A stretch of 64,000 bases of DNA from Theionarchaea archaeon (GTDB lineage: Archaea > Methanobacteriota_B > Thermococci > Methanofastidiosales > SZ-28-30): positions 62,001 to 126,000 of the forward strand of contig JACVGT010000018.1 in assembly GCA_018992685.1 (NCBI GenBank), read 5' to 3'. The position numbers were made by a program, and so were the translations under genes. Under the pieces are notes generated by a model. The model saw nothing but the letters and a program-made list of their open reading frames with translations, searched no databases and was not told the origin of the DNA. This document shows positions 5,289 to 14,782 of this stretch, piece after piece (position 1 is the first letter of the stretch; each line of letters begins with the position of its first letter).

Positions 5289-5298
5289 GTTTATATGG
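5289..5298 (+). promoter_or_regulatory. TATA box that fixes the start of the twin-PqqD gene
   Basis: The sequence gtttatatgg is centred about 26 bases before ATG 5319. It contains an upstream in-frame ATG (5295), which therefore lies inside the promoter and is unlikely to be the translation start. Confidence 0.6.
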
Positions 5299-5318: not shown

Positions 5319-5945
5319 ATGAAAGATCTCGAGCACAAGTACATTCGCTGGTCTGACAACTGTGTATGGCAGTCTTTTGGTGAGACACTAGCTGTTTTAC
5401 ATACCCTCATGCCTGATGCAGGACTCATTCCTGCAGAGAATGTCACTCCTAGAATCCAGCTGAATGACGTGGGGAAGGACGTCTGGGAGTTGTGCGACGG
5501 CACCAGAACATTCAAAACTATCTTTGAACAGCTGTTGGAAGAATATGAAGGCGATCCAGAGAAAATCGAAGAGAATTTGAGAAAAACGGCCATAGAATTA
5601 GAGAAAAAAGGGTTCTTATCCTTCGAAGATACTCCCAAGGAGTATGAATACACTGACATCAACCCAGAGATGTATCCCTACTGGGACGACAATGTGCTCT
5701 GGAACGAGGTGGAGAATCAGGTACTTGCCATGAACAATCAAACCGGAGTGTCTTTTGAGTTCCCTGAAGATCTAGGAAAACTCTGGAAACTCTGTGATGG
5801 CAAGAGCACACTCAGGGAAATTCTTGTCATCCTTGAAAGGGAAGGAGGGGTAGACAAGCCACACCCGAAAAATATGGTACATCTGCTCCTGAAACAGTTG
5901 ATCAAGCTCAACATGATTGTCATGAGGGACTCCCCTGTCCCCTGA
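5319..5945 (+). CDS. Twin PqqD-domain protein (candidate RiPP recognition element)
   Basis: A 208-residue protein made of two PqqD-like winged-helix domains in tandem (about 8-95 and 110-205). Each has the family pattern: an aromatic opening (YIRWSDN, YPYWDDN), then WELCDGTRT or WKLCDGKST, and a final helix near KKGFLSF or KLNMIVM. In known systems PqqD domains bind the leader of a precursor peptide and present it to a radical SAM enzyme. The two radical SAM genes that follow at once (10 and 8 bases apart) fit that role, perhaps one domain for each enzyme; this last point is inference. Start 5319 is chosen over 5295 because of the TATA position. No precursor peptide was found beside it. Confidence 0.85.
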   Translation: MKDLEHKYIRWSDNCVWQSFGETLAVLHTLMPDAGLIPAENVTPRIQLNDVGKDVWELCDGTRTFKTIFEQLLEEYEGDPEKIEENLRKTAIELEKKGFLSFEDTPKEYEYTDINPEMYPYWDDNVLWNEVENQVLAMNNQTGVSFEFPEDLGKLWKLCDGKSTLREILVILEREGGVDKPHPKNMVHLLLKQLIKLNMIVMRDSPVP

Positions 5946-5954
5946 GGGATTCTC

Positions 5955-7316
5955 ATGCATCCTCTCAAGAGAAGAATTGTCGTCCAGCTCAAAGAAGATG
6001 AATACCTCCTCATTAACCCCTACTCTGGGCTAACTGATATTGTTGATGCAGAAGCATTGCGCGCTCTGGAGAACGGACATCCAGATCTCCAGAATGGTGT
6101 TATCCGGGCTCTCAGAAGAAGAGGTCACCTCAAGGAGGAAGATGACGAAGAGTATCTCTTTTCTTTCCTGGAAGCACAGGCAACCCGTGTACATAAGGCT
6201 GCTCGTTCCACTTACCTCCACGTTATTGTACCCACCTATCAGTGCAATCTGCGGTGCCCCTACTGTTTTGAGAAACATGTTTACAGAAAGGAGTTGAAGC
6301 AGAGGGCAATCATGGACGAAAAATCGGTGGATCTTCTCTTTGAGTCTGTGATGTCCCTGGATACAGAATCAAAAGAGAAGTGCATCGTACTCTATGGGGG
6401 GGAGCCCCTCCAGGTTCAGAACAAAGATATCATCCAGTACATACTGGAAAAGGGAGAGGACCTGGACTATTCGTTCAAGGTGGTTACCAACGGTGCTGAT
6501 CTGTATCATTTTGTTCCTGCACTCTCTGAGACAACTGTTCTCAAGATTCAGGTAACCCTTGACGGTCCCCAACCCGTGCATGATAGGAGAAGATTCCGAC
6601 CCGGAGGAAAAGGAACGTTCCATGATATCGTGAGAGGCGTGGATGCATGTGTGGAGCATGAACTGCCCATAGGAATACGAATCAATGTAGACAGAGAAAA
6701 TATTGATTACATGCCCGAGTTTGGGGAATTCTATAAACAAAAGGGGTGGTATCCCCAGGTATATGCCTTCCTGACCAATGTGCATGGCTCTGAGTGCGTT
6801 TCATACGTTCCATTAATCTCTCCAGAAGAATTCGTAGAGAAGATTGTACACCTCTTTGCAGAAGATGACCGGATGAGGCCTTTCTTACAAACATTCCGAT
6901 ACCCCAATGTTCTGCTGGAGCACCTCTTTGCGGGGAAGGAATTCAAGCCGCGGTTCTGGAGCTGTGGTGCCCACACCTCCATTTTGATATATGACCCTGT
7001 GGGAGATATCTATCCCTGCTACGAGGCTGTGGGTGATGAACGTCACAAGATTGGTGAGTACTTGCCCCAATTGCGGTTCAATGATGAATATGAATACTGG
7101 AGAAACAGAACAGTATTTGCAATCCCTGAGTGCAGAGAATGCAATTACAGCCTTCTCTGTGGTGGAGGATGTGCCTATGGGGCTTACAAGCAGCATGGAT
7201 CGATATACAGCCCGTACTGTGACAAGACCAAGTATTCATTGAAGTATGAAATACCTTATTTAATGAGACTGAGTGGGGAAGAAGTCTCTCTGTCTGAAGA
7301 GAGAGACTGGTACTAG
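5955..7316 (+). CDS. Radical SAM/SPASM peptide-modifying enzyme 1
   Basis: A 453-residue radical S-adenosylmethionine enzyme. The first ~80 residues (REDEYLLINPYSG-like start) look like the N-terminal domain common in SPASM peptide maturases. The radical SAM 4Fe-4S cluster ligands are C97, C101 and C104 (CNLRCPYC), followed by VLYGGEPL (the GGE motif). The C-terminal SPASM region holds further cysteines: SCGAH, YPCYEAVGDE, CRECNYSLLCGGGC and YCDKTK, enough for auxiliary clusters. Such enzymes make thioether, C-C or epimer modifications in peptides. It lies between the twin-PqqD gene and a close paralogue, in one operon. Target peptide unknown. Confidence 0.88.
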   Translation: MHPLKRRIVVQLKEDEYLLINPYSGLTDIVDAEALRALENGHPDLQNGVIRALRRRGHLKEEDDEEYLFSFLEAQATRVHKAARSTYLHVIVPTYQCNLRCPYCFEKHVYRKELKQRAIMDEKSVDLLFESVMSLDTESKEKCIVLYGGEPLQVQNKDIIQYILEKGEDLDYSFKVVTNGADLYHFVPALSETTVLKIQVTLDGPQPVHDRRRFRPGGKGTFHDIVRGVDACVEHELPIGIRINVDRENIDYMPEFGEFYKQKGWYPQVYAFLTNVHGSECVSYVPLISPEEFVEKIVHLFAEDDRMRPFLQTFRYPNVLLEHLFAGKEFKPRFWSCGAHTSILIYDPVGDIYPCYEAVGDERHKIGEYLPQLRFNDEYEYWRNRTVFAIPECRECNYSLLCGGGCAYGAYKQHGSIYSPYCDKTKYSLKYEIPYLMRLSGEEVSLSEERDWY

Positions 7317-7324
7317 GTGATGCC

Positions 7325-8620
7325 ATGAAGAGAACCCCTGTAATCCACGTGGGTGAGGATGAATTCCTCCTGTATAACCCTGTTTCAAAAGTGGTGGACG
7401 TGGTTGACTCTGACGTTGTCACTGCATTGGAGAGTGGAACCCTGCCGCCTGACATGAGAGAATATTTGGAAAGACATGGGCACCTCACCATGAGTGATGA
7501 TGAGGCAGAAGCCTGGTTAAAGGAGGAATGTTACAGGTCACATGCCACCCTTGCTGATTCTCCTGCTTACTACATAATTCCTACCTATAATTGCAACATG
7601 CGCTGTATCTATTGTTACGAGAAGGATTTGAGAAGAGAACCAAAAATCATGAGCAGTCGGACTGTAGAACAAGTTTTCAGTCTTGTGGAAAGCCGTCTAG
7701 TAGATACCATCATTCTCTACGGGGGAGAACCCTTCCAGAAGGGAACAAAACCCGTAATAGAACAGATTGCTAGACTCTCAAGAGAGACGGGGTGCCGCCT
7801 TTCTGCATGTACAAACGGCCTTGAATTGCTGGACTCCGAACCTCTTTTTGACTATTTCTCTGAAATCATCGTAACGTTGGACGGAGTGGAACCAGTCCAG
7901 AACTTCAGGAGACCTTCTGTAGGAGGACCCTCTTTTTCAACGGTGATCCGCAGCATTGAGAGAGTCATTGAAACAGGCACTCCTGTAACCATCTCAGTGA
8001 ACGCGGATGCTCAGAACGTGGAGTCACTACCTGAACTTGCAGATTTTTTCATTGAAAAAGGATGGCACACTCATCCTTCAGTTCACATTGCTGTGTCCCA
8101 CATATTGCAGCCGCTCGATAGGACCTATCCTTACATGCTGGAGCCCAAAGATGCTGCACAGAAAATGGTGGAACTCCACCAGAACTATCCTTCTATGGAA
8201 CTGTTCCAGGAATCATTCAAGGGGTTAAACCCGCTGGTTAACGTATTTTTCAAGGGAGAAGAGTGGAGGCCGCGCTACTGGTACTGTCGTGCAAACTGCT
8301 ACATGCTCCTTTTTGATCCGTATAACTATCTCTATCCCTGTTACATGGTAGTAGGGAGGCCTTCTTTTGCAGTGGGAAGATTCTCTGATACAATTGAGGA
8401 GTCTCCCAGCATGGCTGCGTGGAGAGAACGCACCTGTTTCACCATACCTCAGTGCAGGGAGTGCGCACTGGGCTGTTTCTGTGGTGGGGGATGTGCGTAT
8501 CGTCAGTATCGGAGAAGTGGTTCTTTTTCTGACCCGTATTGTGACACAGTGGAAGCCTTGATCACATATTATGTGCCATTTCTGTATGAAAAGGTGAAAG
8601 AAAGAGGTGATAGGCTGTGA
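7325..8620 (+). CDS. Radical SAM/SPASM peptide-modifying enzyme 2
   Basis: A 431-residue paralogue of the preceding gene with the same layout: an N-terminal domain with EDEFLLYNPVSKVVDVVD, radical SAM cysteines C90, C94 and C97 (CNMRCIYC), the GGE motif in ILYGGEPF, and a SPASM tail with YWYCRANC, YPCYMVVG, CRECALGCFCGGGC and YCDTVE. The pair probably arose by tandem duplication and may act on different positions of one substrate, which is inference. It starts eight bases after enzyme 1, and its stop codon overlaps the start of the methyltransferase gene (GTGA). Confidence 0.88.
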   Translation: MKRTPVIHVGEDEFLLYNPVSKVVDVVDSDVVTALESGTLPPDMREYLERHGHLTMSDDEAEAWLKEECYRSHATLADSPAYYIIPTYNCNMRCIYCYEKDLRREPKIMSSRTVEQVFSLVESRLVDTIILYGGEPFQKGTKPVIEQIARLSRETGCRLSACTNGLELLDSEPLFDYFSEIIVTLDGVEPVQNFRRPSVGGPSFSTVIRSIERVIETGTPVTISVNADAQNVESLPELADFFIEKGWHTHPSVHIAVSHILQPLDRTYPYMLEPKDAAQKMVELHQNYPSMELFQESFKGLNPLVNVFFKGEEWRPRYWYCRANCYMLLFDPYNYLYPCYMVVGRPSFAVGRFSDTIEESPSMAAWRERTCFTIPQCRECALGCFCGGGCAYRQYRRSGSFSDPYCDTVEALITYYVPFLYEKVKERGDRL

Positions 8621-9300
8621 AAACCAGTTTTTGGGAAAGGGAAGCACTGTATGACCCTGATCACCAGAAACCCATCAGGTTAGTGAGGAATGTAGTAGCT
8701 GAGATGAGAAAGAGGGGAATGTCGGATGTTCTGGAAGTAGGATGTGGCAAAGGAAGAAACTGCCTCTACCTGGCCAGGAAAGGACTTAATGTGACTGGAG
8801 TGGATTCTGATTGCAGGACGTTGCTCTCTTTCCAGGAACTCTTGAGAGAGGAGGGGTTGTCTGCTGCCGTCGCCTGCGCCGATATATCAGCCCTGCCATT
8901 CATAGGAGAGTGCTTTGACCTGATTATGTTCATTCATGTCTTGACGTTCACGAGGGAATGTGCCCGCTGGAAAACTCTTGATGAAGCAAAGAGGGTTCTG
9001 AAACGTGGCGGCATCCTGGTCCTGGTGGAACGATCCCAAGGAGATCCTCTGTACCAAGAAGGCGTGCAGATAGAAAGAGATACCTACCGGTGCCAGGGGA
9101 TAACTCATCATTTTTTTTCCAAGGAAGAGCTGGACTCACTTCTATCTCCACTGAAAATCGCAATCATGCGAGAATCACGAACCATCGATACGAGCCACGG
9201 AAGCCCGCACGTTCATGGAATGTGGTTCTGTGTAGCAATTGATGAACCTCAGACGTCGTGCATGAAAGATTCCCTAATGGATATCAGTCATCAATGGTAA
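8617..9300 (+). CDS. Class I SAM-dependent methyltransferase
   Basis: A 227-residue Rossmann-fold methyltransferase. Motif I is DVLEVGCGKGRNC (about 37-49), followed by the acidic end of strand 2 (GVDSD), a motif near ADISALPF and the strand RGGILVLVERSQ. Start is GTG at 8617, overlapping the stop of radical SAM enzyme 2, so the two are translationally coupled. Being the last gene of the PqqD/radical SAM operon, it may methylate the same product. It runs into the nitroreductase gene tail to tail, overlapping by 17 bases. Confidence 0.85.
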   Translation: MKTSFWEREALYDPDHQKPIRLVRNVVAEMRKRGMSDVLEVGCGKGRNCLYLARKGLNVTGVDSDCRTLLSFQELLREEGLSAAVACADISALPFIGECFDLIMFIHVLTFTRECARWKTLDEAKRVLKRGGILVLVERSQGDPLYQEGVQIERDTYRCQGITHHFFSKEELDSLLSPLKIAIMRESRTIDTSHGSPHVHGMWFCVAIDEPQTSCMKDSLMDISHQW

Positions 9301-9934
9301 GAGTAACGTCTTCCACTCTTTTCCTTGGAGGGCTTCGAGGATTGTGGGAGGGTTTCCCAACGGGTATCATGGCCAGTAATTCCCAGGGGTCCTCGACGTC
9401 AAACAACATTTCCAGTGAGTCCTTTGCCACGAAGGGAATGTTCATCCAGCATGCACCATAGCCCAGATCGTGGGCTGCCAGAAGGAGGTTCTCAATAGCA
9501 GCTGAGACACTGAGAATATTCACGTATCCAAACTGTCTGAAAGCTTCAAGTTCATCCATGCCCTGATTCGTGTAGCATTTCAAGAACGGGCTATCTTCTC
9601 TTTCCATCAAGACCACGAACACCACCGGAGCAGACCCAAAGAAGAGGGAAACAAGACGAAATCGCTTCTTGAGGGCTTCTGCTGTTTCTTCAGGATTCTC
9701 CACAACTCCCCTCAGGAGTGACTTCAGCTCAAAGCAGCTCTTCTTAATACATGCTACCATCTCCCTTTTTCGCTGCTCTGATTTCACCACGATGAATCTC
9801 CAGGGCTGCCTGTTGGCACCGCTGGGAGCCATGGTTGCTGCCTCAAGCATGGCGACAATGTCCTCCTGCGGGACAGGAGTTGGGTTGAACCTTCTGATGC
9901 TTTTCCTGGTCCTGATAGCATCAAGTGTTTCCAT
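9284..9934 (-). CDS. Nitroreductase-family FMN oxidoreductase
   Basis: A 216-residue protein with the nitroreductase fold. Typical blocks are AIRTRKSIRRFNP at the start (FMN phosphate contacts), MAPSGANRQPWRFIVV, and later LAAHDLGYGACWMN before the C-terminal MIPVGKPSHNPRSPPRKRVEDV. The frame is open to 10078, but the ATG at 9934 fits the family start and has GAGGGGAG about eight bases upstream. It overlaps the end of radical SAM gene 3 by 14 bases, so the two are co-transcribed. Relatives oxidise azolines in RiPP pathways or reduce quinones and nitro compounds; a peptide-related job here is inferred from neighbours. Confidence 0.85.
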   Translation of the reverse strand: METLDAIRTRKSIRRFNPTPVPQEDIVAMLEAATMAPSGANRQPWRFIVVKSEQRKREMVACIKKSCFELKSLLRGVVENPEETAEALKKRFRLVSLFFGSAPVVFVVLMEREDSPFLKCYTNQGMDELEAFRQFGYVNILSVSAAIENLLLAAHDLGYGACWMNIPFVAKDSLEMLFDVEDPWELLAMIPVGKPSHNPRSPPRKRVEDVTLTIDD

Positions 9935-11195
9935 GAGCACGTCTCCCCTCTCTGTATTCGGTATAAATGTTGTCCACTCGTTCCAGAACGTTCTGGGCAT
10001 CTTGTTCTGGATCGAAAGAGCACTGTGGATCTGGCATGAAAGGGTCTCCATATGCCCCATAAGAAATACAGGATGCACCTCCCATGCATGTGAAGTTAAG
10101 TCGGGTATCTGTGTTAAAGGGGCATTTTGAACACTTTCCTTTCATGTGTGCGTATTTTTTTCTCATTTTCCAGAGGAAAGAATGGTTCCACATTTCTTCA
10201 AAACTCTGGGTCAATAAATTCCCTACCACCACAGGCATTCTCCTGCAGGCATAGCAGGTACCGTCAGGCATCACTGCAATATACTTCTTTCCTACCTGAC
10301 AGTGGTTCCCATTCTTGTTGACTAGTGAAAACATGGAATCGAGACAGGTTCCTGTACACACTACGGGCCAGTCACACCGTAGCCGGTTGACAAATACGGC
10401 CTTTTCTTGGTTCACTGCTTTTTCAAATGCACTATCAGTGATGTTCCCCAACCAAGAATACAATGATTTAACCTCTTGCGAGGTAAGCAGCATGTCGTTC
10501 ATTTGCTTTCCCCTTCCGAAGGGAACCAGCCGGGTTACCAGTACATACTCAGCCCCCAGCTGTTCTGCAAGATCAGTAATCTCATATGCATCCTGATAGT
10601 TATTCTTGTGTACGACGAGATGAATGTGGAAAGGGATTCCTGCCTCCTGCAGACATCCAATTCCCTGAAGCGTTTTTTCAAAGGCGCCTCTTCCCCTGAC
10701 TCTGTCATGCGTCTCTGCACGGACTCCGTCCAGGCTTACCTGGACAAACCTCAGAACGTCGTAGGTTGCAAGGGTTTCAGCCACAGAACGATCCACCAAA
10801 GTGCCATTGGTGAGGACAGCGCCTGAAACAGGATGATTCTGGCTGTATGCCTGTAGATGATCCAGCAAGGGCCATACGCTTGGTGAAACCAGAGGTTCTC
10901 CTCCACTGAGGGGAACACGGGGCAACGCATGCCACTTTTCAACGGCTGTCAGAAACTTGTCCAGCATAGCAATCAACTGCTCAGTTGTGGCCTGGTAGGT
11001 GATGGACTCATCTTGATAGCAGTGGGTACAATGGAGGTTGCAGTTCTCAGTAATCTGGTATTGAAATGTGAATGAGTTCTCCAGTTGGTCAACTCTACGG
11101 ACTCCTCGTTCCTCGAGTTGAGATATTCCAGACACGTCTTTCACAAGAATCACCAGCTTATCTGGCCCACTAACGTTTATATATTTAGTCCCCAT
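9921..11195 (-). CDS. Radical SAM/SPASM enzyme 3
   Basis: A 424-residue radical SAM enzyme with cluster cysteines C52, C56 and C59 (CNLHCTHC), the motif PLSGGEPL and a SPASM domain (CTGTC, HCQVGK, CYACRRMP, CSKCPFN, CMGGASC). It differs clearly from the two enzymes on the other strand: it lacks their ~90-residue N-terminal domain and resembles PqqE/AlbA/heme d1-type maturases. The ATG at 11195 is only nine bases from the divergent glycosyltransferase start. An alternative GTG at 11153 (410 residues) fits better as a leaderless start from the TATA element at 11177-11187. It is in an operon with a nitroreductase. Confidence 0.88.
   Translation of the reverse strand: MGTKYINVSGPDKLVILVKDVSGISQLEERGVRRVDQLENSFTFQYQITENCNLHCTHCYQDESITYQATTEQLIAMLDKFLTAVEKWHALPRVPLSGGEPLVSPSVWPLLDHLQAYSQNHPVSGAVLTNGTLVDRSVAETLATYDVLRFVQVSLDGVRAETHDRVRGRGAFEKTLQGIGCLQEAGIPFHIHLVVHKNNYQDAYEITDLAEQLGAEYVLVTRLVPFGRGKQMNDMLLTSQEVKSLYSWLGNITDSAFEKAVNQEKAVFVNRLRCDWPVVCTGTCLDSMFSLVNKNGNHCQVGKKYIAVMPDGTCYACRRMPVVVGNLLTQSFEEMWNHSFLWKMRKKYAHMKGKCSKCPFNTDTRLNFTCMGGASCISYGAYGDPFMPDPQCSFDPEQDAQNVLERVDNIYTEYREGRRAHGNT
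11176..11188. promoter_or_regulatory. Near-symmetric TATA element between divergent genes
   Basis: The run TTTATATATTTAG reads as a good TATA box on both strands. On + it is centred about 24 bases before ATG 11205 (glycosyltransferase); on - it is about 28 bases before the in-frame GTG 11153 of radical SAM gene 3. It may serve both directions. Confidence 0.5.
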
Positions 11196-11204
11196 AATGC
11201 CCGC

Positions 11205-12380
11205 ATGCAGGTGTTATTCGTTTCTAAGTATCCCCCTATTGAAGGATTTGTGTCTTCTTATGCCTATTGGTTGGCTAGAGGTCTGGGAGAACGAGGGCAC
11301 CAGGTTTTTGTTGCTACCAATGCCCAGGAAGTTGATACCAAATACAGAGAAGATGTTTCTTTGGAAGACCCGTCCCTGATACCAAAAGGAGTGACCCTAC
11401 GTCTCACGTGTGAGGACAAAACTCTGGGGTGTATTCCCTATTTCAATCCTTTCACTGAGAAATTGGCCTCTCTTGCTCTGGATTGCATTGATGAGCACGG
11501 TATTTCCCTTATTGATTCATGGTACCTCATGCCGTACGGGATTGCTGGATTGATGGTCAGCCTGCTTTCAGGACTGCCCCTCGTGGGGAGAGTGGCTGGC
11601 ACAGATGGAGAAAGAATGTGTCGCTCACCTCAATTTAACAGACTTGCGCTCTCATTTTTTGAGCATTGTTCACAGATTGTTGGAAATTTCAAAGCGATTC
11701 CCTCTATAACTCCGGAAATTCAGAAAAAGATGATTCCTCACGGGATTGTGCTGCATCCTTCATTCATAGAGGAGAGATCTCCTCTGGATCTGTCAGGATA
11801 TCCTCAATACGTCGAGGGAATTCCTGTCATTACCTTTATAGGAAAGGCAACGTCATTCAAGGGATTTTTTCCCCTTGTTGACGCACTCTCGCAGATACCA
11901 GACCCGTTTCTCTTTTTGGTAGTTTCTAACGGACCTGAATCCTTTCAATTCACAGAGCATGTAAGGAATCGAAACCTTGAAGAGAGAACACTTTTCCTCC
12001 CTTTCCAACCTCCCTGGAAGATGCCTGCAGTATACCGCTCTTCCACCGTAGTGGCTTGTCTGGAACATGGAAATTTGATACAAAGAGCTCCCATTGTGCC
12101 AAGGGAAGCTGCCTCCTGTGGACGCTGCACAGTAATCAGCCCTGAAATCCATTCAAAAGGACACTATCGCCTCCTGGAAAATGGGGTCCATACCGTGATT
12201 GCAGATCCTGATGATCCGGAGGGCCTCAGGAGTGCAGTCCATGATCTGATTTCTCACCCAGAAAAGGCTGATGTCATCGGACAAGGCGGACATGACTTTT
12301 TTTCCCGGCTGGACAATCCAAGAAATCACAGCACATATATTGATGGTATCCTGGACATGTACAGAAGAATCTGCGAATAG
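11205..12380 (+). CDS. GT4-like glycosyltransferase
   Basis: A 391-residue protein with the two-domain GT-B fold. It opens with QVLFVSKYPPIEGFVSSYAYWLARGLGxRGH, the usual N-terminal strand and GxxxxxxLAxxLxxxGH motif of family 4, and the second domain starts near VITFIGKATSFKGF. The C-terminal donor-site block is PREAASCGRCTVIS, where the expected EA(x)4G acidic motif appears as REAASCG. The frame is open to 11085, but ATG 11205 fits both the fold and the TATA box. Context suggests a link with the peptide-modification genes, but it could equally work in surface glycan synthesis. Confidence 0.82.
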   Translation: MQVLFVSKYPPIEGFVSSYAYWLARGLGERGHQVFVATNAQEVDTKYREDVSLEDPSLIPKGVTLRLTCEDKTLGCIPYFNPFTEKLASLALDCIDEHGISLIDSWYLMPYGIAGLMVSLLSGLPLVGRVAGTDGERMCRSPQFNRLALSFFEHCSQIVGNFKAIPSITPEIQKKMIPHGIVLHPSFIEERSPLDLSGYPQYVEGIPVITFIGKATSFKGFFPLVDALSQIPDPFLFLVVSNGPESFQFTEHVRNRNLEERTLFLPFQPPWKMPAVYRSSTVVACLEHGNLIQRAPIVPREAASCGRCTVISPEIHSKGHYRLLENGVHTVIADPDDPEGLRSAVHDLISHPEKADVIGQGGHDFFSRLDNPRNHSTYIDGILDMYRRICE

Positions 12381-12704: not shown

Positions 12705-14609
12705 TCAAATCCGGGGTACATATTTACGTCCCATCAAGAACAGAAACCCGATGAATAATCCAGCCAGTTGTACCTCAAGCAGTCCATGTCTTCTGGAATC
12801 AGTCCACTCAGGCACATCTTTTGGCACTACCTGATCTCCCAGTGCTTCAAATTCTTCTCTTGTCATGTAATGTATCACGGGATGGTAATGACCCATAATC
12901 CCCGGGCTATTCTCACCAACAAGAGTGACATCATATGCATCTTGAGACCACGCCCCGGTAGCCCAGGGAATATTGTTGCTATCGGGAGCTGCCTCCGGGA
13001 GATGCCACTCAGGAACAACACTCATCCACCTGAGAACTATGACCTGATGTGAAGAAGGACCCCATTCCTGCCAGGTGATACCATTTTCCTCTCGAGCATT
13101 TGCTGGCTTCTCTTCTTCTCGCGAAAATACTATGATGTATTCATTGTCCTCATTGGTGAGAATCTCGTCATCCATGAGACTCCCGTGAGGGACAGAGGTG
13201 TAGATGCTCTTTCCTAATCCACCACTTCCCTGTTGATGCGTGAACGAGAAGTACCGCACTTCACTTCCTGTCATGGTTCTCTGACCCTGGCGGGTCTTTG
13301 GAAACTCTGGCAATCGTCCTGTGAGGACAATCACCTTGTCCTCGCCAAGCGCAATTGGACGCAGCAGGTATGAGACATAGTTGCAGCATGTTGCTCCACA
13401 CTCGAAGTTTCCTGGGGGATCAGCAGATGCACCCCGATTCCATAGGAGGCGGAAAAAGTCGCGAATCTCTTTTCGTGTGGTTTTTACATCGGTTCTCCCC
13501 CACGGGTTGGAGCTGATGTAGCCTTGCGCTTCCAGCATGGCAAGATCGATTCCAAACATTTTGAACCAGCCCAGTGTGGGCCCCTCAAAAACGTAAGGTT
13601 CAAAAGGGGAGACGGGCCTGTTGGGGACGAGAGCTGTCTGATCTTCAACAGCCTTTGATTTATCACATGTTATCCAGAATTTCTCACCTGTGGGCAGCTG
13701 GAGGGTGGCCCTGGGCCATTGTACGCCGCCAAAAGGCTCTCTATCTTGATCGGGGGCATAGATCCGAAGCCAGAGAACAGAAGGAACCAAAACATTATTA
13801 CCCCAGGGTCCAGCAAATCCAAAAGGACTTCCCACGCGCGTGTTGCCTGGTGCACGGTAGTCAGGTGGGCTCATGACGTCTGGATTCAAGTCTACAGCAT
13901 TCCCGATTCTTAGCTCAAAAGTGACTTGATAATGTCTTTTTTCACCAGTCCTGTCAGCACCTACCCTGAAGGGATTGGTATGCCCAGGGTCAGGCTCAAT
14001 ATCTACATCCACCAGTGGGACCTCACACACTCCCATGTTGCCGGTAACTGGATGAAGTGGGTCAAAGGGCTGCAGAATCTGGTAGTTCATGAAACGGCAG
14101 TGAGGGAAATCGCCTTCTATCAATAGTTTCGAGTTGAAAGGAGCAATGAAAATGAGTTTCAGATACGTAACGTGAGGATCAGGAGAGCTTTGATGAAGTT
14201 CCTCTGTAGGATCGTACATTTCGAGAGCATACCACTGATCTTCCGGTGTTATCTGGTCAGGAGTTACCAGTGTCCAGGTATGCGTTTTTTCACTGTCGAT
14301 ATAGGCAGGAAGCAGCCCATCAGGAAATTCGGCATCAGCCTCACCATCAAGCCATCGGTAGATGTAGTCCTGCAATGATTGGGAGAGAGTTTCAGCTTCC
14401 TCAAGAGCGCGCCTGCAGTATGTATCTCTGTCTTTCTGGCTTTCCAGTGCACACTGTAATCGTTCTTCACCCGTCATGGAGGGGAGATCCTGGTATGTCC
14501 ATTGTGTATCGGGGAAGAGAACCTCATTTTCAGGAGAGGATCTTTTGTCCTGAGAGATACAACCGCATAAGAGAAACCCCAGTAGAATGAGGGCGCATTT
14601 CCTGTTCAT
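12705..14609 (-). CDS. Large secreted lipoprotein with C-terminal membrane helix
   Basis: Not recognised beyond its targeting. A 634-residue protein whose signal peptide ends in a lipobox (LLCGCIS), so it should be lipid-anchored outside the cell. A C-terminal hydrophobic helix followed by GRKYVPRI gives a second anchor. The long middle part is acidic and rich in tryptophan, proline and aromatics, with paired cysteines (FECGATCCNY), as expected of an extracellular, disulfide-bearing protein. The frame opens at 14627; ATG 14609 is preferred because a TATA-like CTTAAG lies about 25 bases upstream and it directly precedes the signal peptide. It stands alone. Confidence 0.7.
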   Translation of the reverse strand: MNRKCALILLGFLLCGCISQDKRSSPENEVLFPDTQWTYQDLPSMTGEERLQCALESQKDRDTYCRRALEEAETLSQSLQDYIYRWLDGEADAEFPDGLLPAYIDSEKTHTWTLVTPDQITPEDQWYALEMYDPTEELHQSSPDPHVTYLKLIFIAPFNSKLLIEGDFPHCRFMNYQILQPFDPLHPVTGNMGVCEVPLVDVDIEPDPGHTNPFRVGADRTGEKRHYQVTFELRIGNAVDLNPDVMSPPDYRAPGNTRVGSPFGFAGPWGNNVLVPSVLWLRIYAPDQDREPFGGVQWPRATLQLPTGEKFWITCDKSKAVEDQTALVPNRPVSPFEPYVFEGPTLGWFKMFGIDLAMLEAQGYISSNPWGRTDVKTTRKEIRDFFRLLWNRGASADPPGNFECGATCCNYVSYLLRPIALGEDKVIVLTGRLPEFPKTRQGQRTMTGSEVRYFSFTHQQGSGGLGKSIYTSVPHGSLMDDEILTNEDNEYIIVFSREEEKPANAREENGITWQEWGPSSHQVIVLRWMSVVPEWHLPEAAPDSNNIPWATGAWSQDAYDVTLVGENSPGIMGHYHPVIHYMTREEFEALGDQVVPKDVPEWTDSRRHGLLEVQLAGLFIGFLFLMGRKYVPRI

Positions 14610-14782
14610 AGTTGCCATTTCCTGCAATACTCTTAAGCCTTTTGTTTGGTGACTGCTGCTGGCCTGCTATCGTGGGACACCATCCCTCATCCCACACTGA
14701 TCTTCATCCCTCTTCTGAAATAGTCTTCTCTTTGTGGCCAGAAGACAGCAACCCTTTATAGTGGTATTCTGCATTCTACTGT

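Follow-up and report, generated by a model that had tools for sequence, protein, structure and literature searches.

A block of seven genes at positions 5319–12380 of a 64,000-nucleotide stretch of the Theionarchaea archaeon genome (contig C1:62001–126000; hereafter the window) probably constitutes a maturation cassette for a ribosomally synthesized and post-translationally modified peptide (RiPP), in which a tandem RiPP recognition element (RRE) and radical S-adenosylmethionine (SAM)/SPASM enzymes would act on a precursor with an LNKKxW leader supplied in trans. The block very probably makes a chemically modified, Cys-rich small peptide. As judged from sequence, maturation of the RiPP type is well supported, since recurring cassettes of the same kind adjoin short Cys-rich precursor open reading frames (ORFs). 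The host genome comprises 3.03 Mb and is 91% complete; Theionarchaea archaeon SZ_28-30 was the sole other genome of the same genus compared. Contig labels (C1, C2, C10, C18 etc.) are numbered separately for each genome and L-numbers denote extracted loci.

An earlier note on this DNA had listed a twin PqqD protein, two paralogous radical SAM/SPASM enzymes (rSAM1 and rSAM2), a methyltransferase, a divergent pair of a third such enzyme (rSAM3) and a nitroreductase, and a glycosyltransferase. All seven genes are present and their reading frames are intact:

5290–5298, + strand: TATA-like box TTTATATGG, ∼29 bp ahead of the ATG of twin PqqD and kept in the orthologous locus; putative promoter
5319–5945, + strand: twin PqqD (tandem RRE) protein, 208 residues; Pfam PF05402, internal duplication and profile matches to structures
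5955–7316, + strand: rSAM1, radical SAM/SPASM maturase of the CefB/TIGR04463/PapB/CteB kind, 453 residues; models, motifs and a match to the CteB structure
7325–8620, + strand: rSAM2, paralogue of rSAM1, 431 residues; family models, motifs and alignment
8617–9300, + strand: SAM-dependent methyltransferase; 4-nucleotide overlap with the rSAM2 stop
9284–9934, − strand: nitroreductase-fold flavoprotein, BluB/FbiB-like; start corrected, probably to ATG 9934 rather than 10078
9921–11195, − strand: rSAM3, radical SAM/SPASM enzyme of the AhbD/MftC/ACGX-like kind; family models and motifs
11205–12380, + strand: glycosyltransferase, Glycos_transf_1, probably starting at ATG 11205; own TATA-like box, syntenic next to rSAM2 in SZ_28-30

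Related cassettes and their precursor peptides

Synteny in the second genome, the ratio of nonsynonymous to synonymous substitutions (dN/dS) and the repeated co-occurrence of the same gene kinds indicate that the block is more than a chance assembly. Contig C62 of SZ_28-30 carries syntenic orthologues of the twin PqqD protein (74% identity), rSAM1 (85%), rSAM2 (81%) and the glycosyltransferase (77%), with dN/dS values of 0.10–0.15 for the first three, and the start of the twin PqqD gene is conserved there together with its TATA-like box. A decayed orphan cassette, functionless in this organism, could explain why no precursor is found in cis and why the methyltransferase, nitroreductase and rSAM3 part is rearranged or lost in SZ_28-30; given the intact frames and catalytic motifs, the purifying selection and the conserved start and TATA-like box, we find this barely credible.

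Enzymes of the rSAM1 type (CteB/PapB-like) number 13 in the host and 27 in SZ_28-30 (E up to 1e-20). Three more cassettes combining a twin PqqD protein with rSAM1 are found in SZ_28-30, on C97, C30 and C13, and the window rSAM1 clusters with the twin-PqqD neighbours on C62, C97, C30 and C13 (support 100/99). The complete cassette L052 (SZ_28-30 C13) comprises a nitroreductase, a diverged twin PqqD, an rSAM1-type enzyme, a methyltransferase, an rSAM3, another radical SAM enzyme and a precursor, while L130 (SZ_28-30 C140) has a PqqD, two rSAM3, a nitroreductase, a methyltransferase and rSAM1-type genes; each of these two cassettes has a nitroreductase copy 40% identical to that of the window, and the window methyltransferase has relatives at 26.7% in L052 and 26.8% in L130. 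Host contig C10 encodes, after three rSAM1-type genes, a 616-residue fusion of a twin PqqD with an rSAM3-type enzyme, a specific link between twin PqqD and rSAM3-type enzymes; the window rSAM3 is 47% identical to the C-terminal part of this fusion and of the same type. By gene content, then, the twin PqqD, radical SAM and partner gene kinds are recurrently associated. Two B12-binding radical SAM proteins (L051 4262–6082, + strand; L116 2536–4380, − strand) also adjoin rSAM1-type cassettes and are related, below the cut-off, to the RiPP C-methyltransferase family TIGR03975.

Comparing gene neighbourhoods of the twin-PqqD protein, as the earlier note had proposed, did reveal a conserved small ORF. 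Small ORFs that have a good ribosome-binding site and end in a Cys-rich segment adjoin the cassettes in SZ_28-30 and the host paralogues, and seven of these precursors, six from SZ_28-30 and a single one from the host, have the leader M[KE]xxx[LV]NKKxW in common (LNKKxW-type leader sequence, MKALRVNKKLWTNVLIVDMNESPS; examples, MKAISLNKKLWTDVTMDSLDFVSPDCEGPLINGCGGGGCYFSPCPPWIWPCNFF on C13 and MEVVRLNKKMWTDATVEPLDFNPGPAVICGCGGGCCYGRW on C97). A divergent member at C13:39093 retains only K9 and W11. A five-row precursor profile recovered two new members, on SZ_28-30 C29 (E 6e-10) and host C18 (E 1.8e-8), both adjoining rSAM1-type pairs. A profile of the leader alone matched at six sites of SZ_28-30 and a single site of the host, with no other match in either genome up to E 10; across 115 genomes of the phylum it gave one further match, weak and partial (E 0.008). 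The precursors are encoded in cis at the SZ_28-30 twin-PqqD cassettes on C97, C30 and C13. Their cores contain Cys/Gly clusters and no CX3D series, and dN/dS values of 0.02–0.19 between orthologous precursors show purifying selection. None of ten tested precursor peptides from related loci matched an NCBIfam family.

As a rough control for chance, we counted small ORFs preceded by a Shine–Dalgarno sequence whose C-terminal 35 residues include four or more Cys. The cassette loci (251 kb) gave 20 and other PqqD loci of the host (133 kb) gave 3, some of which may be precursors themselves; the 64-kb window holds two, neither near the block.

At least six precursor families, all unannotated, occur in the lineage. 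Besides the LNKKxW family these include Cys-every-ninth repeats (C2/C128), CITEGTGSWCCRICHPYV (host C13/C154), QCMCCA pairs (C1:310k/C4), CPPYPCGCINI triplets (C71) and a GGTP family (C105). The repeat ORF (L115 9883–10110, − strand, on host C2; L122 8550–8726, − strand) has four to six tandem CALEVQPTF repeats with a Cys at every ninth residue, lies directly upstream of an rSAM1-type pair and has a dN/dS of 0.02 between the genomes. The QCMCCA peptide, of 28–35 residues, is present in two copies (L118 10155–10241 and 10539–10646; L121 7390–7476 and 7764–7871; all − strand) upstream of an rSAM1-type enzyme, a PqqD and a methyltransferase in both genomes. Triplicated precursor-like peptides flank rSAM1-type enzymes in SZ_28-30 L125 6790–8772 (CPPYPCGCINI) and L129 1845–5686 (GGTP), and an ORF at L051 464–628 (+ strand) may be of the GGTP kind.

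A candidate substrate encoded in trans

A short precursor with leader and core is encoded at the paralogous cassettes and is absent from the window. The earlier note had seen none in the window, and indeed none lies in or beside the block, either there or at the orthologous locus; the note had also suggested that the substrate might be encoded elsewhere. That suggestion looks right: a leader-matching peptide, MKALRVNKKLWTNVLIVDMNESPSLCEIIVTPYGVCGCGGCCCAFYCRTLIC, is encoded on another host contig (C18:10930–11088, − strand), where two rSAM1-type enzymes adjoin it, and is the sole LNKKxW precursor in the host genome. Each of the two genomes has exactly one LNKKxW precursor without a twin-PqqD gene (host C18 and SZ_28-30 C29), and the two are mutually orthologous. 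Since an orphan cassette and an orphan precursor thus exist in both genomes and are most parsimoniously matched with one another, the C18 peptide is the most likely substrate of the window cassette, which would modify it in trans. The twin PqqD mRNA is probably leaderless, to go by the short distance (about 29 bp) from the TATA-like box to the ATG, and such a transcript would have little or no space for a precursor ahead of twin PqqD.

The same RiPP machinery could instead serve another, unseen precursor, lost in an assembly gap or bearing an unrelated leader. The host genome is incomplete, the cassette has no precursor in cis and other Cys-rich precursor families exist in the host; against this, the orthologous cassette in SZ_28-30 likewise lacks a precursor, every one of the nearest paralogous cassettes has a precursor with an LNKKxW leader and the C18/C29 peptide is the only unpaired precursor. 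We consider an unseen precursor unlikely.

Several points weigh against the RiPP reading with the C18 peptide as substrate. No precursor was recognized in the window by motif, Cys content, ribosome-binding site or conservation, and the orthologous C62 locus has none either. The C18 precursor has two radical SAM enzymes of its own, so that the window cassette might not be needed, and with a host genome that is 91% complete another precursor may be missing. The methyltransferase, nitroreductase and rSAM3 genes are not beside the cassette in SZ_28-30 and may therefore form a separable module; there, C50 carries an rSAM3 orthologue and a partly matching methyltransferase, with the nitroreductase absent. 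Finally, AlphaFold models of the twin PqqD (pLDDT 39 alone and 46 with one orthologue) are too poor for a fold search or to show the putative leader-binding groove; the latter gives domain 1 the strand and helix order of an RRE at low confidence. Between rSAM2 and the glycosyltransferase on SZ_28-30 C62 (L050 7444–7548) there is a 35-residue match to the C-terminus of the nitroreductase (40%, E 6e-4), possibly a remnant of that gene, which suggests that the methyltransferase–nitroreductase–rSAM3 block was once there and was then lost or moved.

The twin PqqD protein

Domain 1 of the twin PqqD protein (residues ∼4–104) scores 48.7 bits, above the Pfam PqqD cut-off of 23.4, and domain 2 (residues ∼115–206), taken alone, is a weak match that stays under it (21.9 bits). 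An alignment of one half with the other spans 90 columns (hhalign probability 98.8, E 1e-16), which indicates a true domain duplication and bears out the two PqqD domains described in the earlier note. A seven-row profile of the protein matched the lasso-peptide RRE TbiB1 (PDB entry 5v1u) with both repeats and the PqqD structures 5sxy and 3g2b with domain 1, and also matched TfuB1; a search of the PDB with the single sequence gave weak matches only. The RRE expected of a RiPP system is thus present by PF05402 and by the TbiB1 and PqqD profile matches. Like PqqD and other discrete RRE proteins (those of the pyrroloquinoline quinone (PQQ) and lasso-peptide systems, GeoRSP TIGR04302 and ScmD), the protein passes the Pfam PqqD threshold with domain 1; unlike them, it has two repeats in one chain and scores below every NCBIfam equivalog cut-off.

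Among the 115 genomes of the phylum, the twin-PqqD profile matched in the host and SZ_28-30 only, and a pattern scan across 84,980 species genomes, able to detect close relatives only, found SZ_28-30 alone. Our literature search found no paper on RiPPs of Theionarchaea or on tandem RREs, the searched passages of RRE surveys do not mention tandem RREs and a search on GeoRSP yielded nothing relevant.

The modification enzymes

rSAM1 and rSAM2 are 35% identical, and both carry CX3CX2C and the SPASM signature CX2CX5CX3C; in a 21-row family alignment the radical SAM cysteines are invariant, as are those of the SPASM domain except for one that is nearly so. The solved structure nearest to rSAM1 is CteB (PDB entry 5wgg, E 3e-27) and its best NCBIfam matches are CefB (150 bits; cut-off 600) and TIGR04463 (139 bits; cut-off 525). 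Both enzymes have the seven-Cys SPASM domain of the CteB/PapB type, with scores under the PapB and SCIFF equivalog cut-offs. rSAM3 belongs to a different subfamily (AhbD, MftC, ACGX-like); it too matches peptide-maturase SPASM models with intact motifs and, like the other two, below the equivalog cut-offs. Because rSAM1 and rSAM2 are of the CteB/PapB/CefB kind with full sets of SPASM cysteines, thioether-type cross-links are their likely products. CteB has an RRE at its N-terminus (PMC8172795), and the conserved N-terminal regions of rSAM1 and rSAM2 (e.g. YLLxNxxxGxxDxVD) suggest, by analogy, a similar one.

The block resembles the ranthipeptide systems (SCIFF CteB–CteA and PapB–PapA) in that CteB is the nearest structure to rSAM1, PapB, TIGR04463 and CefB are the nearest models and the loci related to the window have short Cys-rich precursors. 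It differs in scoring far below the curated cut-offs, in its new leader, in precursors at related loci that lack the PapA-type CX3D series and in its paired enzymes, discrete tandem RRE, additional rSAM3, nitroreductase and methyltransferase, and want of a precursor in cis. Similarly, CefA/CefB (Cys-every-fifth) and the TIGR04463 Cys-rich systems provide the top family matches of rSAM1, whereas their cut-offs are not reached and the ten related-locus precursors match no NCBIfam family.

A pathway to a peptide-derived redox cofactor, in which a short peptide is converted to a small cofactor in the manner of PQQ or mycofactocin, would account for some of these features. An RRE, a radical SAM/SPASM enzyme, a flavin mononucleotide enzyme and a glycosyltransferase parallel the mycofactocin cluster (PMC3023750). 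Some mycofactocin neighbourhoods have a methyltransferase as well, and rSAM3 resembles MftC, the mycofactocin maturase TIGR03962 being its second best NCBIfam match (138 bits). That score is well under the cut-off of 265, however, and rSAM3 is far below every equivalog cut-off. Searching the block by hmmscan found no MftA, MftE or MftF family; the glycosyltransferase is of Glycos_transf_1, whereas MftF is of group 2. No ORF with the conserved C-terminal motif of MftA was seen in the block, a genome-wide search for one not having been made. The block has additional enzymes of the CteB type, rSAM1 and rSAM2 being of the thioether-maturase kind, and related cassettes have varied, Cys-rich precursors, where those of cofactors are invariant. 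A cofactor pathway is decidedly improbable on these grounds. We hold it highly improbable that the target is a segment inside a larger protein, modified in the way of an anaerobic sulfatase-maturating enzyme (anSME) or QhpD: rSAM1 does also match the QhpD-type TIGR03906, anSME models and solved anSME structures, but a leader is to be expected where there is a tandem RRE, peptide maturases are the best-matching models, the paralogous cassettes carry short precursors and the sole neighbouring candidate target is an unannotated 640-residue protein (12705–14627, − strand).

Of the earlier RiPP interpretation, peptide maturation is well supported and two details are not. The idea of two recognition domains for two enzymes conflicts with the single rSAM1 beside the twin PqqD on SZ_28-30 C97, C30 and C13; the fusion to an rSAM3-type enzyme on host C10 contradicts it as well. 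The nitroreductase was taken for an azoline oxidase, which is unlikely because a search of the host genome, 91% complete, gave no match to YcaO (PF02624); the protein looks BluB/FbiB-like. SZ_28-30 has one YcaO match, on C46, a contig without any studied cassette.

In the RiPP pathway that we propose, the twin PqqD protein would, as a discrete tandem RRE, bind a short Cys-rich precursor by its LNKKxW-type leader and present the peptide to the radical SAM/SPASM enzymes. rSAM1 and rSAM2, with their two SPASM auxiliary clusters, would place radical cross-links, most likely thioethers, on the Cys/Gly-rich core, and rSAM3, the flavoprotein and the methyltransferase would modify the same peptide further. 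The C18 peptide would then be modified by enzymes from two loci, the window and the rSAM1-type pair on C18. A wider version of this scheme is a trans-acting, genome-wide RiPP network in Theionarchaea, in which the tandem RRE would be a scaffold with two sites, receiving the leaders of precursors encoded elsewhere and handing them on between CteB-like and AhbD/MftC-like SPASM enzymes, one peptide being modified from separate loci; we regard this version as doubtful.

Neighbouring genes and other loci

The glycosyltransferase is syntenic and has a TATA-like box of its own; it may be part of the pathway or only a neighbour. The 640-residue protein beyond it starts with a lipoprotein-like segment and matches no family in Pfam or NCBIfam. 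Elsewhere in the host, C3, C7 and C19 (L040 7212–12706, L045 and L047) encode PqqD–radical SAM fusions, three in a row in L040, neighboured by a protein of 389–445 residues (xITVGRQDIGKYVSLP type), the L040 copy of which has no NCBIfam match. On host C7, a short ORF ending in KCSCGCDPTLIP (L042 4556–4666, + strand) lies upstream of an ACGX-like radical SAM enzyme (best match TIGR04340) and a small PqqD, and this locus is another candidate RiPP system.

Implications

Radical SAM RiPPs of archaea have been widely predicted and are uncharacterized; according to a 2025 survey, experimental validation before it existed for two haloarchaeal lanthipeptides only (PMC12144867). As far as the genomes compared indicate, the system described here belongs to a lineage-specific expansion, a family that has multiplied in this lineage, and has an unusual tandem RRE. 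This tandem RRE, which in one locus is also fused to a SPASM enzyme, would offer a tractable system for studying how a leader is shared among several radical enzymes, and the C18 peptide provides a concrete, testable candidate substrate for the orphan cassette.

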